A stretch of 9,914 nucleotides of DNA from positions 1-9,914 of the forward strand of contig JAAURZ010000044.1 in assembly GCA_012031955.1 (NCBI GenBank), in the 5' to 3' direction. Positions 262 to 7,060 of this stretch are shown one piece after another; the stretch's first letter is position 1; every line of letters begins with the position of its first letter. The translations under genes were made by a program, and so were the position numbers. The notes beneath the pieces are model-generated. The model was not told where the DNA came from. It made no database searches and saw only the letters and a list, made by a program, of their open reading frames with translations. This stretch comes from Bacteroidia bacterium (GTDB lineage Bacteria; Bacteroidota; Bacteroidia; Cytophagales; Cyclobacteriaceae).

Positions 262-1051
262 GATTTGTTTCTCAAAGTGTGAACGAATGCGGCTATCTCC
301 TTTTCAAAGTCGACGGCGGTGCCGAGCAGCGTGATGAACGAGCTGCCCACGATGGCGCCCGCCGCGTATTGGCACGCGGTGCTGAAGGTGCTATAGTTAG
401 AGATGCCGAAGCCGATGAGCAGCGGGTTGTGGAGTTTGAGTGCCTTGAGTTTTTGAAGTAGTCGACCTGGGCTTGTGAGAACTCACCGCGCGCGCCGGTG
501 ATGCTGGTAGCAGACACGGCATAGATAAATCCGTTGGTGGCTGCATCGATCTTGCGGATGCGGTCTTCCGATGTAGTGGGCGAAATGAGGAATGTGTTGC
601 AGAGGCCGTACTTCTCAAAAAGCGCTTTGTAATCGGCGATATATTCCGCCATGGGCAGGTCTGGGAGTATGAGACCGTCTACGCCGGCGGCGGCGGCGTC
701 TTTCAGGAATGGCTGAATACCATATTGCAGTACTGGGTTCACATAACCCATCAGTATAATCGGTATGTCCACCTGCGGGCGCAGTTCGGCCACCTGCCTT
801 AAAAGCAACTTCACATTCATGCCGTTGTCGAGCGCCACTTTGTTGCTTGCCTGTATGGTGGGGCCATCGGCCACCGGGTCGGAGAACGGAATACCGATCT
901 CAAGTATGTCAGCGCCGGCCTTCTGCAACGCCACACCTATGCGCACGGTATCGTCGCGTTGCGGATAGCCTGCCGTGTAGTATATGGAGAGGATGTCGGC
1001 CTTCTTTGCGTGAAAGGTATCGATAATGCGATTGTCTACGGTCGTGTTCAT
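258..1051 (-). CDS. trpA: Tryptophan synthase alpha subunit (frameshifted in this sequence)
   Basis: TrpA splits indole-3-glycerol phosphate into indole and glyceraldehyde 3-phosphate and channels indole to TrpB in a cytoplasmic alpha2-beta2 complex. The start MNTTVDNRIIDTF is chosen because it lies 4 bases after the trpB stop; an in-frame upstream ATG at 1102 lies inside trpB. Family motifs include YYTAGYP, EIGIPFSDPVADGP with the two catalytic acids at about Glu51 and Asp62, and ISPTTSEDRI. After FSQAQVDYFK the frame is lost at a T run (450-454, an A run on the coding strand). Adding one base restores LKALKLHNPLLIGFGIS, GAIVGSSFITLLG and a C-terminus ending TLRNKS. The repaired length is 264 residues, normal for the family. 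The restored stop overlaps the start of the DAHP synthase gene as ATGA. The single homopolymer indel is most likely a sequence error. Confidence 0.93.
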
Positions 1052-1055
1052 TGGT

Positions 1056-2237
1056 TTAGTATTTTCCCCAGCGTATGTAGGTCTCCAGGTCTTTGTCGCC
1101 ACGGCCCGACAGGTTGATCACCACCACGTCGTCGGCTTCCAACTCAAGTTTCTGCAGCGCCGCGATGGCATGCGCCGACTCGATGGCCGGAATGATTCCT
1201 TCGAGCCTGCTTAGCTGAATGCCGGCTTCCATGGCTTCGTCGTCGGTGGCGTTCACAAATTTCACACGGCCCACGTCGAACAAGTGCGCATGCACGGGGC
1301 CGATGCCGGGATAGTCGAGGCCGGCGGAAATAGAATAGGGTTCTATCACCTGGCCGTCGTCGGTTTGCATGAGCAGCGTTTTGCTGCCGTGCAGTACGCC
1401 GAGTTTACCCAACGCCGTAGTCGCCGCCGACTCGCCAGTGCCCACGCCTTTGCCTGCTGCTTCCACGCCCACGAGGTTTACATGTTCATGGTCGAGGTAA
1501 TGGTAGAAAGCGCCGGCGGCATTGCTGCCCCCGCCTACGCAGGCGATCACGTAGTCGGGAAATGGATTGCCGATAACGTCGGTGAGCTGGCGCTTCATCT
1601 CTTCGCTGATAACGGACTGGAAGCGCGCCACCATGTCCGGGTACGGATGCGGACCCACCACGGAGCCGATAATATAGTGGGTGTCTGTAGGGTGATTGAT
1701 CCAGTGCCGCATGGCTTCGTTGGTGGCGTCTTTCAGCGTCATGTTGCCGCTCTCCGCCGGCACTACTTTCGCCCCGAGTATGCGCATACGCTCTACGTTA
1801 GGCCGCTGCCGTTCCATATCTACCTTGCCCATGTATACGATGCATTCCATGCCCATGAGTGCGCACACGGTGGCGGTGGCTACGCCGTGCTGGCCGGCAC
1901 CGGTCTCGGCAATGATCTTCTCTTTACCGAGTCGCCTTGCTAGCAGTATCTGGCCGATGGTGTTGTTCACCTTATGCGCGCCGGTGTGGCAGAGGTCTTC
2001 GCGTTTAAGGTAGATGTTTGTCTTGTAGTGTTCGGACAGTCGCCCGGCAAAATACAGTGGCGTCGGCCTGCCCACGTAGTCCTTCAGCAACTGGTGGAAG
2101 TCATGCTGAAATGCGGGTTCCTGCATGATGGCAAGGTATCGCTCACGAAGTTCTTCCACGTTGGGATAGAGCATCTCGGGGATGTATGCACCGCCAAACT
2201 TTCCATAATATCCGCGCTCGTCTACGCTGTAGTTCAT
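1056..2237 (-). CDS. trpB: Tryptophan synthase beta subunit
   Basis: TrpB joins indole and L-serine to make L-tryptophan with pyridoxal phosphate, as the partner of TrpA. The reading frame is intact at 393 residues, the usual length for the short TrpB1 type. Visible motifs are GRPTPLYFA near residue 56, HTGAHKVNN with the PLP-binding Lys89, AETGAGQHG with the catalytic Glu111, the cofactor phosphate loop [10 protein letters not shown] at about 233-242, and NLSGRGDKD with Ser377, which contacts the PLP ring nitrogen. The start overlaps the trpF stop as ATGA, implying translational coupling, and trpA follows after 4 bases. It is one of the few operon genes here without an apparent indel. A 219-residue open frame on the opposite strand within it is a codon-bias shadow. 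Confidence 0.98.
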
Positions 2238-2861
2238 AGGTCTATGGTCTTTATCTTCAATAGCAGTTGGATTATTTTCTGCGTGTCTTTCACGCCGGGC
2301 ACTGACTCCACGCCGCTGTTCAGTCTACGGCAAATAATCTCTTGTCGTTCAGCTCCACGATGCCTTCGACGTTTTCCGGCGACAGCCCGCCGCTGAGGAA
2401 GTAAGGCGCCTCTTCTTCGTAGCGCTTCAGCAACGACCAATCGAACGACGTAGCGTTGCCGCCGTAGTGCTTGCCTTTGGTATCGAATAGAAAGTAGTTG
2501 ACTACGTCGCGATAGTATTGCAGCGCCTTGAAGTCGAATGTCTCGTCGATGCCAAAGGCTTTGATAATCTTGTAGCCGGCGCTTTTCATGAGTTCGCACT
2601 TCTCCACCGACTCATAGCCATGCAGTTGTATGTAGTCCAGCGAGGCGTTGCGTGCGAGTTCCATCATGGTGGGCACGCTGTCGTTTACGAATACGCCCAC
2701 CTTCTGTATGTCGGGGGGCAGCGTTGGCATATCGAACGCCTCCCCTACGTACCGTGGCGAGTGCGGGTAAAATATGAAGCCCATGAAGTCGGGGCCGAGC
2801 GTGGCCACGTCCACAATGTTTGCGGTTCCTTCATGCCACATATTTTTACCTTCGGCGTCAT
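2234..2861 (-). CDS. trpF: Phosphoribosylanthranilate isomerase (two frameshifts in this sequence)
   Basis: TrpF isomerises N-(5'-phosphoribosyl)anthranilate to the carboxyphenylamino-deoxyribulose phosphate used by TrpC. The true start is ATG at 2861, giving [13 protein letters not shown] with the general-base Cys8; the KICGM motif marks the family N-terminus. One base is missing near 2824-2825. The next frame then carries [41 protein letters not shown] with the general-acid Asp127, and [12 protein letters not shown] second base is missing at about 2322, where GAC-TGA should read GAC-CTG-AAC. The frame then gives [14 protein letters not shown] and the C-terminus. The repaired protein has 209 residues, typical of TrpF. 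The start overlaps the trpC stop and the stop overlaps the trpB start, both as ATGA. Without repair only a central 173-residue piece is seen. Confidence 0.92.
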
Positions 2862-3665
2862 TGTGCAGTTATTTCCAGTTTCCTAAGGTCATCAATAAAT
2901 TCTTTACACGCCAGTTCCGGGCGATTATGCCGCATGAAGTTCTCCACCGATCCAGGAAGCCCCGGAATCCGTGCTTGCGCAGTGCGATGATCTTGTCGGG
3001 CGTGTCATGCCGCTTTCAGAGATTTTGGTGACTGTGGGCGGCATGAGTGCGGCGAGTTGTATCGACGTATCGAGGCTTACTTCAAATGTTTTGAGGTTGC
3101 GGTTGTTGACGCCTATGATGGAAGCCCCATTGTCAAGGTTGGCTTTGAGTTCGTCTGCGTTGTGTACTTCTAGCAGCACTTCCAGTCCCAGCGAAGCGGC
3201 TACTTCTGTAAGTGCTTTGATCTCGGGCGGCGATAGCACCGCTGCGATGAGAAGAATGGCATCGGCGCCAATGGATTTGGCTTCGATGACCTGGTACTCG
3301 TCGACCGTGAAGTCTTTTCGCAATACGGGGCAGAAGTTGAATTTGCGTGCTGTCTTCAGGTCGTCGTTGGTGCCGCCGAAAAATTCGGTATCGGTGAGCA
3401 CCGAGAGCGCGGACGCGCCGGCCTGCATGTAGCCGATGCTGGTACGTTCCACCGACACATAGGGATTGATCATGCCCTTCGACGGCGACTTGCGCTTGAT
3501 CTCGGCGATGATGCCCGACTTGTCGGGCCGGTTCACGTACCTGGCAAGCGACACGGTGGGCGATGGAAAATAAATACTCTTTTCCAACAGCTTTACCGGA
3601 AAGAGGCTCTTTCGCTCGGCTACCTCCTGCCGTTTGTGAGCTACAATCTTGTCGAGTATGTTCAT
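2858..3665 (-). CDS. trpC: Indole-3-glycerol-phosphate synthase (frameshifted near its 3' end)
   Basis: TrpC closes the indole ring, turning carboxyphenylamino-deoxyribulose phosphate into indole-3-glycerol phosphate with loss of CO2. The first ~220 residues read cleanly: MNILDKIVAHKR, GIIAEIKRKSPSKG with Glu55 and the catalytic Lys57, VLTDTEFFGG, RKDF with Lys117, LEVLLEVH with Glu166, GVNNRNLKTF and SESG. After that one base is missing near 3003-3005, and extra bases at 2952 and 2945 complete the damage. Correcting all three gives TPDKIIALRKHGFRGFLIG, then ENFMRH and a C-terminus ending LRKLEITAQ. The repaired length is 268 residues, normal for the family. FLIGENFM is the usual final phosphate-binding segment. 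The restored stop overlaps the trpF start as ATGA, and trpD ends 4 bases upstream. Read without repair, the protein is 246 residues with a scrambled tail. Confidence 0.93.
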
Positions 3666-3669
3666 GTGG

Positions 3670-4656
3670 CTATGCCTGAATTAGTTTTTGAAATGCTTCT
3701 TTCGCCCTGCCGGACACAAGGGCCTCGCGCGCTTTCTCTACTGCCGGCGCGATTCCCGGCTGCTGGTCGGCTGCGAAGAGCGCCATGGCGGCGTTGGCAA
3801 TCACTGCGGCGTTTTGCTGGGCCGTGCCGTTGCCATCGAGTACGTTCAGGAATATTTTCGCCGCTTCCTCTACTGTGTCTCCTCCTTTCAAGTCGGCACT
3901 TTTGAGATATGGCAGCGCAAGGTCTTCGGGATCGGCAATGCGTTCGCCGCCGTTAAAGAAATATTTGAAGGCCCCGGTGAGCGATACTTCGTCGTAGCCA
4001 TCGAGCGCGTGCAATATTACGTACTGCTTGTTGCTGCGCTGGTACAGGTAACAGTACTGCCGTGCAAGTTCGAGGCTGAATACACCTACCAACTGGCGCG
4101 TGGGAAACGCCGGGTTCACCATCGGGCCGAGCATGTTGAAGAATGTTTTCACGCCAAGTTCTTTTCGAATAGGCGCCACGTTCTTCATGGCGGGATGGAA
4201 CAGCGGTGCGTGCATGAAACAGATGTTGGCACGGTCGAGGCTGCGGCGCAATTCGTCGATGTTGTTGGTGAACTTGTAACCGAAGTATTCGAGCAGGTTG
4301 CTCGATCCACTTACCGACGACACACCGTAGTTGCCATGTTTGGCGACGGGCTGCCCCGCGGCGGCCACCACAAACGACGACAGTGTGGAGATGTTGAATG
4401 TGTTCTTGGCGTCGCCACCGGTGCCACACACGTCCATCACCGGTTGGTCGAACCTGGCGGGTATGCATAGTTCCAGCATGGCATCGCGAAAGCCCTGTAG
4501 CTCGTCCACCGTAATGCTGCGCATCATGTACACGGTCATGAATGCGGTGGTCTGGCTGGCATTGAACTTTCCGGAAGCCAGTTCCACCAGCACTTCGCGC
4601 GCCGTCTCTTTCGTGAGCGACCTGTGATCTATGAGTTCGTTCAGTATCTGCTTCAT
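3670..4656 (-). CDS. trpD: Anthranilate phosphoribosyltransferase
   Basis: TrpD transfers the phosphoribosyl group of PRPP to anthranilate, the second step from chorismate to tryptophan. The frame is intact at 328 residues, normal for a free-standing TrpD not fused to TrpG. Motifs are CGTGGD at 77-82 and NIST at 88-91, both at the PRPP site, KHGN at 106-109, NVAPIRKELGVKTFFN with the anthranilate-site arginine at about 164, and LGPMVNP at about 176-182. The segment KHGNYGVSSVSGSSNLLEYF departs from the enterobacterial KHGNRAVSS pattern but keeps the glycine- and serine-rich loop; this variant is, to my knowledge, usual in Bacteroidota. The gene sits between trpG and trpC with 4-base gaps on both sides, consistent with coupled translation in one transcript. 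Confidence 0.98.
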   Translation of the reverse strand: MKQILNELIDHRSLTKETAREVLVELASGKFNASQTTAFMTVYMMRSITVDELQGFRDAMLELCIPARFDQPVMDVCGTGGDAKNTFNISTLSSFVVAAAGQPVAKHGNYGVSSVSGSSNLLEYFGYKFTNNIDELRRSLDRANICFMHAPLFHPAMKNVAPIRKELGVKTFFNMLGPMVNPAFPTRQLVGVFSLELARQYCYLYQRSNKQYVILHALDGYDEVSLTGAFKYFFNGGERIADPEDLALPYLKSADLKGGDTVEEAAKIFLNVLDGNGTAQQNAAVIANAAMALFAADQQPGIAPAVEKAREALVSGRAKEAFQKLIQA

Positions 4657-4660
4657 TGCG

Positions 4661-5233
4661 TTATGCCTTGTGTTTTATCCAGTTGTCGATCATTTTGGCG
4701 CCTTCGGGTGTCATCACCGACTCCGGGTGGAATTGCACACCGCGCACGTCGTATTCTACGTGGCGCACGCCCATTACCAGGCCTTCATCGTTCGCGGCTG
4801 TTACCTTCAGCGCCGGTGGAATGCTTTCGGGTTTGATGGCCCACGAGTGGTAGTGCGTGGCCTGAAAACGGTCTGACACATTGTTGAACAAGTATTCGTC
4901 GCGGTCGAGCACGGTGGCTACGGAGGTAACACCGTGCAGCACCTTCGGAATGTTGAACAAGGATGCGCCGTACACTTCGCCGATGCCCTGGTGGCCAAGA
5001 CACACGCCCAGTATGCTCCTGGTTGGTCCGTACCTTTTGATCACATCTTTCATGATGCCTGCTTCATCGGGAATGCCAGGCCCCGGCGACAGCATGATTT
5101 GTCGTATATGCCCACCGCGTCCGTAGTAATGGCGTCGTTGCGGATCACGTCGGGTGTGTAGCCGAGCGCACGCACAATGTGCACGAGGTTGTAGGTAAAT
5201 GAATCGTAGTTATCGAGTATCAAGAATTTTCAT
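4661..5233 (-). CDS. trpG: Anthranilate synthase glutamine amidotransferase subunit (frameshifted at its 5' end)
   Basis: TrpG is a class I glutamine amidotransferase that releases ammonia from glutamine and delivers it to TrpE. The start ATG at 5233 gives MKIL. One extra base at 5221 and one missing base in a T run at 5098-5100 interrupt the frame. Repair restores [20 protein letters not shown], which is the family signature at the N-terminus, followed by [10 protein letters not shown]. The nucleophile is Cys78 in GVCLGHQ, with His169 and Glu171 of VQFHPES completing the triad. The repaired length is 190 residues, a stand-alone TrpG not fused to TrpD or TrpE. As read, only the last 144 residues from MLSPGPG form an open frame, so an automatic call would lose the first 46. 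The stop is 4 bases from the trpD start. Confidence 0.94.
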
Positions 5234-6664
5234 TTCTGCTTCTGTTGCTCCTTTTTGTTAAATGTTCTCGGCCTATACGCACGGCGCCGGCGCAGTGCTT
5301 CGAGTTTGTTGTTCACTTCCTGCAGTTCGCTCTCGCTTTTGGATTTGGACACCACCCCGGCGCCCGCCTGGAATATCAGTTTGTTGTCGATGCTCAGAAA
5401 GGTACGTATCATAATGGCATGGTTGAACGACTGATCGAATCCAATGAACCCGATGGCGCCGCCGTAGAAGCTGCGATTCACATTCTCGTACCTGTCGATC
5501 AACTGCATGGCCATGTGTTTGGGCGCACCCGAGAGTGTGCCGGCGGGGAAGGTATCGGCCGCCATGTTTACCACCAGGGCATCGTCGCGCAGGGTGCCTG
5601 TCACTTTGGACACGAGGTGTATGACGTGCGAGTAAAATTGTATTTCCTTAAATACTTCCACGGTCACGTGCCCGGCGTTGCGGCTCATGTCGTTGCGCGC
5701 CAGATCCACCAGCATCACATGCTCAGCGTTTTCTTTTTCGTCGGCGGCCAGCTTTTCCGCCAGGGCTGCGTCTTCCTGGTCGTTGCCTGTTCTCCGGAAT
5801 GTGCCTGCGATGGGAAATATATGCGCCTTTCCTTTCTTTACTTGCAATTGCGCCTCGGGCGATGAGCCCATCAGTTTAAAGCTGCCGTAGTCGAAGTAAA
5901 ACAAATACGGCGAGGGGTTGATTGAACGTAATGCACGGTACACGTTGAATTCGTCGCCCTGGAAGCCGGTGGTAAACCGCCGCGACAATACAATCTGGAA
6001 TACATCGCCGCGGTAGCAGTGTTCTTTGCCTTTATCGATCACCTGAAGGAATTCCTGGTCGGTGAAGTTCGACGTTTCATTGTCGGTGAGGGTGAACTTG
6101 TATGTGGCGAAGCGGTTGCTGAAAATAATCTGACGTATGCGATGCAAGGTCGACGCCCCGTTGTTGCCGGCCCAGGTGTTTTTCGAACAGGGTGAGCGCG
6201 TTGGAGAAATGGTCCACCAATATCACGTAGCGATAGAGTTTGTAGACTGCGTCTGGTATGAGCTGCTCTTTTTGATCGATGGTCACGGATTCAAAATGCT
6301 TCACGGCGTCGTAACCGATGTATCCGAACAGACCCGCATAGCTGTTCTTCTGATCGAGCGCCTGGTCTGGCTCAAACATGTTCATGAATCTTTTCAAAGC
6401 CTCCACCAACAGCCCCTGGCCGGCTACGTCTTCTTTGTTGATGGTGCCGTCGGGATAGCGGCTAACGGCCATGTTGTTTTTCACCTGGAACGACGCGATG
6501 GGATCGCAGCAGATAAAAGAGAGGCTGTTCTCATGGCCGTGGTAGTCGGAGCTTTCCAGCAGGATACTACCGGCAAAGGCGTCTCTCAGCTTCAGGTAAA
6601 TGTTGACCGGGGTGAGGGTGTCGGCCAGTAATTTCTCGGCGTACGTTTTGAGTTTGTATTTCAT
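5230..6664 (-). CDS. trpE: Anthranilate synthase component I (frameshifted)
   Basis: TrpE converts chorismate and ammonia into anthranilate with TrpG and is the usual feedback-inhibited step. The start at 6664 (MKYKLKTYAEKLL) follows the attenuator. LLES at 35-38 matches the tryptophan-binding element of feedback-regulated TrpE. The chorismate-binding domain shows GDVFQIVLSRRF, NPSPYLFYFDYG, GSSPEAQ, PIAGTFRR, AEHVMLVDLARND, FPAGTLSGAPK and QAGAGVVSKS. An extra base near 6148 splits the frame between the N-terminal part and the catalytic domain. Two more apparent insertions, at 5286 and 5273, hide the ending: removing them gives ALRRAVRIAENI followed by TAA at 5258-5260, a normal TrpE end and 467 residues in all. 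As written the frame instead runs to 5230 with a lysine-rich tail and overlaps the trpG start as ATGA. The extended tail is therefore probably an artefact. Confidence 0.94.
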
Positions 6665-6697
6665 CGGCACTGTTATTTCTCGGTATATAAAACACGA

Positions 6698-6721
6698 GGG
6701 CCCGCTGCGAACAGCGGGCCC
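6698..6721 (-). terminator. Attenuator terminator hairpin upstream of trpE
   Basis: On the minus strand GGGCCCGCTG and CAGCGGGCCC form a perfect 10-bp stem around a TTCG loop. It is followed by TCGTGTTTTATATA, a moderately U-rich tract in RNA. It ends 33 bases before the trpE start and 35 bases after the leader peptide stop. Its 5' arm plus loop can pair instead with the segment just at the leader stop, so I read it as the switchable terminator of the attenuator. It may also end transcription from the upstream THX gene when tryptophan is plentiful. The U tract is not a clean run, so termination strength cannot be judged. Confidence 0.85.
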
Positions 6722-6755
6722 CCGGGCTAAAGTGCAATTTTCATAGCATGGCTGT

Positions 6756-6812
6756 TCACATATCAATGTCTGATATATGCCACCACCATGTAATTGTAAA
6801 ATGCTTCTTCAT
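6756..6812 (-). CDS. trpL: trp operon leader peptide with three tandem Trp codons
   Basis: A short frame of 18 codons reads MKKHFTITWWWHISDIDM and ends in TGA. Three consecutive TGG codons at 6788-6780 in so short a peptide, immediately before a GC-rich terminator and trpE, identify it as a regulatory leader peptide rather than a functional protein. Stalling at the Trp codons when charged tRNA-Trp is scarce would set the downstream RNA fold. The start lies 21 bases after the THX stop, in an A-rich stretch with no Shine-Dalgarno sequence, as is usual in Bacteroidota. It shares no sequence with the E. coli leader beyond the Trp run, as expected for leaders that evolve only to hold control codons and pairing segments. 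Confidence 0.92.
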   Translation of the reverse strand: MKKHFTITWWWHISDIDM

Positions 6813-6833: not shown

Positions 6834-7001
6834 CTACTTCTTTCTTGCGGGTTTTGCTTTGGTGTCTTCGGTTACAGCACCTGCCACCTTGGTGGCATCA
6901 CCCCGCTCCAACCTTGCCTTGATAGACCTGCGGTTTCGCGACTTGCCGAAGGATTGTCTCCAACGCTTGCCTTTTGCCGATTTCTTGTCTCCCTTGCCCA
7001 T
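6834..7001 (-). CDS. Small ribosomal subunit protein THX (bTHX family)
   Basis: A 55-residue, strongly basic protein reading MGKGDKKSAKGKRWRQSFGK and then SRNRRSIKARLERGDATKV, ending in PARKK. The GKGDKKS..GK..R.S(Y/F)GK.R.R pattern is that of the THX peptide, which in Thermus sits in the head of the 30S subunit and in Bacteroidota is a short protein of similar start. The C-terminal ~25 residues, rich in Ala, Lys and Thr, extend beyond the minimal THX and are less conserved. A good promoter lies just upstream, with the start ~28 bases after its -7 box. The trp leader peptide begins 21 bases downstream with no terminator or separate promoter visible between them, so the two are probably on one transcript. 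It is too short for most ORF cut-offs. Confidence 0.88.
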   Translation of the reverse strand: MGKGDKKSAKGKRWRQSFGKSRNRRSIKARLERGDATKVAGAVTEDTKAKPARKK

Positions 7002-7028
7002 AGTCGGTTTGGATGTTCCTTACGGTGG

Positions 7029-7060
7029 CAATTATAGCAAAAGTCTGAATGCTTCACAAA
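7029..7060 (-). promoter_or_regulatory. Bacteroidota-type promoter for THX and the trp operon
   Basis: On the minus strand TTTG (7060-7057) is followed after 20 bases by TATAATTG (7036-7029). The Bacteroidota consensus is TTTG, 19-21 bases, TAnnTTTG, so only one base of the fixed positions differs. Transcription would start near 7022, giving a 5' leader of about 20 bases before the THX start at 7001. No other good match is seen between here and trpE, so this is the best candidate promoter for the trp attenuator and operon as well. The match is by eye. Confidence 0.65.

Follow-up and report, generated by a model that had tools for sequence, protein, structure and literature searches.

The element upstream of trpE in the window, the whole stretch of 9,914 nucleotides that was analysed, is very probably a ribosome-mediated transcription attenuator of the trp operon and a Cytophagales-type member of the Bacteroid-trp family (probability roughly nine in ten). 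It directly precedes trpEGDCFBA in a Cytophagales-like genome and combines tandem Trp codons with three stems that exclude one another, the last being an intrinsic terminator, as is characteristic of ribosome-mediated trp attenuation. All the parts of a classical trp attenuator that the earlier note had described upstream of trpE in Bacteroidota are present. The following features were annotated:

296 to 5226, minus strand: trpG, trpD, trpC, trpF, trpB and trpA (Pfam matches)
5230 to 6664, minus strand: trpE, in two frames with the change near 6150-6180 (Pfam PF04715 and PF00425, tblastn)
6695 to 6724, minus strand: intrinsic terminator, 13-bp stem with one G-U pair, followed by a tail at 6694-6686; supported by covariation
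6707 to 6715, minus strand: arm 3, the antiterminator partner, corresponding to the 5′ half and loop of the terminator
6751 to 6759, minus strand: arm 2 of the antiterminator 2:3, 9 bp with 6715-6707 including one G-U pair; contains the stop codon
6757 to 6765, minus strand: arm 2 of stem 1:2, the partner of arm 1; supported by covariation
6771 to 6779, minus strand: arm 1, 9 bp with arm 2 including one G-U pair; supported by covariation
6780 to 6788, minus strand: three Trp codons UGGUGGUGG, read from the sequence, the predicted stall site
6756 to 6812, minus strand: trpL leader peptide with stop, 18 codons, reading MKKHFTITWWWHISDIDM (ATG 6812-6810, TGA 6758-6756)
6834 to 7001, minus strand: gene of the 30S ribosomal protein bTHX, 55 aa (NCBIfam TIGR04560, 40.7 bits against a cut-off of 26)
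7028 to 7036, minus strand: TATAATTGC, −7 element upstream of bTHX with conserved TATnnTTGC, probable promoter of thx-trpL-trpE
7057 to 7060, minus strand: TTTG, −33 element of the putative Bacteroidota-type promoter, 20 nt before the TATAATTGC box

The nearest TrpE relatives were found in Cytophagales/Cyclobacteriaceae MAGs, the closest being MAG UBA5867 with 83% identity over the part compared, followed by a Cyclobacteriaceae MAG with 76%. The gene upstream of bTHX encodes an M13 peptidase according to Pfam. In the region 2873-6182, tblastn revealed frame changes in trpE and trpG relative to the proteins of both reference relatives L001 and L002, and one in trpC relative to the L001 protein only, with none relative to L002. 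This suggests indel errors of the source assembly. The leader and terminator of the window agree with those of the relatives.

On re-computation, the coordinates and the three pairings described earlier (1:2, 2:3 and the 3:4 core) turned out to be exact. The terminator had been described as a 10-bp stem, which holds for its core, whereas the full stem comprises 13 bp (6724-6695). Its tail reads TGTTTTATA, with only moderate U-richness. The stop codon, previously placed inside arm 2, falls within the 2:3 arm and straddles the end of the 1:2 arm. In the MFE fold, stem 1:2 is extended by an outer pairing of CAUGG (6790-6786) with CCAUG (6751-6747), which encloses the Trp codons; the Rfam RF01692 consensus encloses them likewise. 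The fold of 6680-6812 has a z-score of −5.4 against shuffled sequences, none of 200 shuffles being as good. Taken singly, the 2:3 pairing of the window is not significant against its own shuffles (z −1.5), so that its support rests on the relatives.

For the comparative analysis, a locus set was compiled from the window and the best 80 of 587 TrpE relatives, an uneven sample. A short ORF with the WWW run precedes trpE in 75 of the 81 loci, together with a terminator in 73, which bears out the conserved Trp run proposed for checking in the earlier note. The ORF scan did not find the leader in L008 and L066; in L066 the element is detected by R1, a covariance model built from the window's clade. 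In total, 74 leaders were analysed further, two of them from a single locus (L034). The geometry is fixed, with medians of 8 residues before WWW, 7 codons after it and 57 nt from WWW to the terminator. The Trp codons UGGUGGUGG are invariant in the alignments A2 (Cytophagales-type) and A3 (Flavobacteriaceae), the rows of which were picked for a WWW leader. As a control, 1,002,586 bases of the same loci contain three WWW mini-ORFs, of which two lie in a common frame, corresponding to a chance rate of 0.0019 per 620-nt region.

From the family of the L001 genome, 41 genomes were covered, 40 of them with a full TrpE. Among these 40, the WWW leader occurs in 33 and is accompanied by a terminator in 31. 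Locus L119 was left out of the 33, as its WWW lies only in a distant 9-codon ORF and its near leader has WW. The leaders of L100, L102, L111, L118 and L119 carry WW or WYW instead of WWW, that of L124 carries WRW as judged by eye, and in one of the 40 genomes (L099) the leader was not found. In a sample of 148 genomes from the phylum, 33 have a TrpE at E ≤ 1e-100 and 30 of these loci were read. WWW precedes trpE in 25 of the 30 (23 of 28 plus G001 and G025), and no leader was found before trpE in L181 and L182.

Covariation was counted in A2, i.e. the 18 chosen Cytophagales-type leaders from which R1 was also built; L029, L033 and L034b, misplaced in a first alignment (A1), and L026 were left out. 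In stems 1:2 and 3:4, 91.7% of the cells are paired, compared to 36-48% when the arms are slid against each other, and both partners vary in 16 of the 22 pairs (shuffled mean 10.2). The 2:3 columns are 87.0% paired, compared to 22-81% when slid, and show a both-side change in one of nine pairs, a value equalled by 317 of 500 shuffles. Covariation of all three stems, likewise proposed for checking, is thus found for 1:2 and 3:4 and is weak for 2:3, partly because one subclade has shifted the pairing to another register. Three arm 2/arm 3 sets could be distinguished: GUGAACAGC/GCUGUUCAC in L001, L002, L007, L030, L086, L087 and L103, GAUCGG/CCGAUC in L003, L006 and L088, and AUCGG/CCGAU in L036 and L058. 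Sister lineages carry differing yet self-consistent sets, which at the sequence level is a compensated redesign and supports the 2:3 pairing.

The pairing of arm 2 was further compared with that of arms swapped between the 74 leaders. Against the 5′ half of the terminator only, the own arm 2 has no advantage (better in 35 of 74), because the partner of arm 2 in Flavobacteriaceae is the loop together with the 3′ half of the terminator. Against the whole own terminator, it is better than the swapped mean in 63 of 74, with mean energies of −16.6 (own) and −13.4 kcal/mol (swapped); it ranks in the top 5% in just 19 of 74.

A hairpin serving as a mere terminator of bTHX or of an upstream operon, with the WWW frame as a chance ORF, would account for the end of bTHX 21 nt before the leader, where a terminator is required. 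This reading was rejected and is considered extremely unlikely, since 75 of 81 loci have the WWW leader in this position, mostly without bTHX upstream, stem 1:2 covaries, and WWW mini-ORFs arise by chance at the low rate given above.

The behavior of the attenuator was approached by folding the nascent RNA in a simple ribosome-position model with three states: ribosome stalled at the Trp codons, free RNA and ribosome at the stop codon. Upstream pairing of arm 3 is highest in the stalled state in 64 of the 74 leaders, compared to only 18-33 of 74 favoring the antiterminator when stalled if the middles are shuffled (five repeats). In the other ten, the stalled state shows no preference for 2:3 over free RNA. 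The mean upstream pairing of arm 3 is 0.54 stalled, 0.28 free and 0.14 at the stop; the values of the window are 0.58, 0.16 and 0.29, respectively. At equilibrium, the finished terminator of the window prevails with the ribosome in any of the three states (0.99), as it does in 13 of 14 leaders tried, the exception being L010 with 0.15 in the stalled state. Since the terminator wins at equilibrium as soon as arm 4 exists, switching has to be under kinetic control, and the order of synthesis matters. Attenuation of the E. coli trp operon likewise depends on the order of synthesis.

The proposed switch would operate as follows. With plentiful charged tRNA-Trp, the ribosome would reach the leader stop codon and cover arm 2, terminator 3:4 would form, and RNA polymerase would halt before trpE. 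With scarce Trp-tRNA, it would stall at UGGUGGUGG and mask arm 1, so that arm 2 (GUGAACAGC) and arm 3 (GCUGUUCGC) could pair while arm 4 is still to be synthesized; formation of 2:3 would then permit read-through into trpEGDCFBA. If the leader is not translated, 1:2 would form, followed by the terminator. We infer that the attenuator responds to tryptophan and that ribosome and polymerase are coupled at it.

Sensing of tryptophan by TnaC-like arrest of the nascent peptide instead of codon stalling would be compatible with a multi-Trp peptide followed by a downstream switch. Arrest peptides conserve specific other residues, whereas this leader peptide is highly variable between loci outside its start and Trp run. 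The arrest reading was therefore rejected and is considered very unlikely.

Codon stalling is the mechanism read here for a kind of attenuator that has been known since 2010. Bacteroid-trp (RF01692) is among the RNAs listed by Weinberg et al. 2010 (PMC2864571), is described in Rfam as 'Bacteroidete tryptophan peptide leader RNA', and is discussed for Flavobacterium psychrophilum in PMC6414381. In the literature searched, which lies outside most subscription papers, the accession was found only in PMC2864571 and the name Bacteroid-trp also in PMC4977773 and PMC6414381.

The window does not match RF01692 even at E 10, and the gathering score of 49 bits is not reached. Among 13 sources scanned, RF01692 lies above its threshold in L053, L060 and L072; at the leader it scores 29.6 bits in the nearest relative L001 and 48.4 in L018/Xanthocytophaga. 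In the phylum sample, 15 of 148 genomes contain RF01692 matches. R1 recovers Flavobacteriaceae leaders in register (e.g., L072 with 59.0 bits). Since the window is included in R1, a match of R1 on the window proves nothing. At E up to 0.01, R1 matches 78 of the 148 genomes; many of the weak ones among the matches listed cover the terminator only and were for this reason not counted as leaders. A second model, R2, was built from 20 Flavobacteriaceae leaders only, with the 10 terminator pairs as its sole structure. Three of its 20 rows (L053, L060, L072) were shown to pass RF01692, and the row ends were taken from R1 matches. R2 finds the window leader with 44.3 bits (E 4.5e-9), the next best match in the window reaching 11.1 bits; the Trp codons and terminator, which are common to all, add to the scores of both R1 and R2.

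The window and RF01692 agree in the phylum, in the trp genes downstream, and in the order of AUG, about 8 codons and UGGUGGUGG; the L001 alignment shares with RF01692 the long hairpin around the Trp codons and the distance of the terminator 5′ arm. As in Bacteroid-trp, the element of this Bacteroidota window is followed by a trp biosynthesis gene, trpE, and the Trp run of its leader ORF falls within the 5′ half of a long hairpin. The differences are that the RF01692 model stops inside the terminator, that bTHX lies directly upstream in the window, and that the antiterminator partner is the 5′ arm and loop in the window's clade, compared to the loop and 3′ arm (GUCGUGA/UCACGAC) in many Flavobacteriaceae. 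The window element is classed here as a divergent member of Bacteroid-trp, though below the Rfam cut-off. The anatomy read in the earlier note stands, with a conserved Trp run and covarying stems 1:2 and 3:4. The element is not isolated within its phylum, as related leaders are widespread in the phylum sample and it belongs with RF01692. A T-box reading was rejected as well, with no match to the Rfam T-box in the window at E 10.

All 20 chosen rows of the Flavobacteriaceae alignment A3 share, unchanged, CGUGA near the leader end and the complementary UCACGAC, which spans the terminator loop and 3′ arm; in many of these rows the UGA of CGUGA is the leader stop codon.

E. coli trpL (RF00513) resembles the window element in its tandem Trp codons, its arms 1:2, 2:3 and 3:4 and its stop codon in arm 2, within the same three-arm layout. 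It has two adjacent Trp codons, compared to three in the window. Against RF00513 (Enterobacterial Trp_leader), the window scores 16.5 bits, below the gathering score of 41. Descent of the Bacteroidota and enterobacterial trp leaders from one ancestral attenuator appears improbable: the arm logic is identical and the E. coli leader is matched in register by R1 (20.0 bits) and R2 (19.6 bits), but partial, terminator-only matches already reach 15-32 bits with R1, so that about 20 bits says little on descent or on whether the element is convergent or very old, the two options raised in the earlier note. Within Bacteroidota, common descent is supported by scores exceeding that of E. coli, by the constant spacing and by the presence of such leaders ahead of trp genes across the phylum.

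The bTHX gene and the probable promoter position were overlooked in the earlier note; the gene is missing from the ORF list because it is shorter than 80 aa. In total, 107 distinct WWW leaders were compared, 14 with bTHX within 260 nt upstream and 93 others. TAnnTTTG is named as the Bacteroidota promoter box in PMC6414381. It occurs at most 60 nt from the leader ATG in 59 of the 93 leaders without a near bTHX (shuffled mean 6.7) and at none of the 14 bTHX loci. Of these 14, 13 carry TATnnTTGC before bTHX (shuffled rate 0.006) and 12 also TTTG 18-20 nt upstream of it; the stretch from the bTHX start to the leader ATG contains neither TAnnTTTG nor TATnnTTGC. The bTHX stop and the leader ATG are separated by 0-21 nt in 13 loci, among them the window (21 nt), and by 75 nt in L103, which is the one locus without TATnnTTGC before bTHX. 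Three further loci have bTHX farther off (L098 39 nt, L120 50 nt, L105 197 nt); TATnnTTGC is missing before bTHX in all three, and L120 carries a TAnnTTTG box, TACTTTTG, between bTHX and the leader. The upstream box thus tracks adjacency, occurring in 13 of 13 tight loci (0-21 nt) and in none of the four looser ones (39-197 nt).

The co-occurrence of the tight gap and the upstream box points to a single thx-trpL-trp transcript in the tight clade; in the clade of the window, transcription probably starts before bTHX, which would make the leader a second cistron. With a shared promoter before bTHX, the attenuator terminator probably also ends the bTHX mRNA. Judged from sequence comparison, the balance leans towards a reading in which bTHX is the first cistron of the trp operon and one upstream promoter drives all genes. 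Ribosomes leaving bTHX would then pass on to the leader, which lies 0-21 nt downstream, and the bTHX mRNA would end at the attenuator terminator. Cells replete in Trp would make bTHX alone and starved cells bTHX together with the trp enzymes. The three looser bTHX loci slightly lower the odds of this reading.

Alternatively, the leader may have its own promoter inside or after bTHX, with bTHX and the attenuator on separate transcripts. Promoter boxes can be degenerate, and the four looser loci, lacking the upstream box and in L120 carrying a box in between, fit such an arrangement. Against it stand the lack of either box between bTHX start and leader ATG at all 14 loci, the box near the leader in 59 of the 93 others and the spaced TTTG/TATnnTTGC pair before bTHX in 12 of 14, and separate transcripts are therefore regarded as rather unlikely. 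If bTHX is the first cistron, the promoter would lie before a ribosomal-protein gene, in contrast to E. coli, where the trp promoter lies before the leader. The literature searched, with the coverage given above, yielded nothing linking bTHX with trp genes, and the local bTHX arrangement looks new. The TAnnTTTG box is absent from both strands of the whole window (9914 bases; 4.1 expected by chance).

Upstream of trpE, 11 loci (L011, L014, L015, L016, L019, L023, L024, L025, L043, L051, L054), mostly Prolixibacteraceae-type records, contain tandem attenuators: the WWW leader is preceded, at a distance of 138-220 nt, by a second short ORF, which in 9 of the 11 has a terminator of its own according to a script. 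The core of the second ORF reads IWLPWWGLL or IWLPWWGLF in all but L019 and L024 (9 of the 11). Its conservation beyond the Trp residues is perhaps partly explained by the core also encoding stem arms. Two Trp-run leaders in series before trpE were also observed in Cytophagales-type genomes, in L034 (at 2098 and 2323), L120, L121 and L123.

RF01692 misses part of the family, as R1 strongly matches additional genomes of the phylum sample upstream of trpE, of trpD and of a TrpB-like gene. R1 detected WWW leaders before trpD in L153, L156 and L160 (TrpD 57-58% identical to that of the window; trpD of L153 confirmed by Pfam), before a TrpB-like gene in L161 (32% identical to the TrpB of the window), and before divergent trpE genes in L147, L154, L155, L158, L162 and L163 (44-48% identity).

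Attenuation by a leader peptide requires a ribosome close behind the polymerase. To our knowledge, ribosome-polymerase coupling has been little studied in Bacteroidota, and the wide occurrence of such leaders before trp genes of this phylum offers a natural reporter for transcription-translation coupling there. Should the bTHX arrangement hold true, the 'off' product of the attenuator would itself be a useful mRNA.
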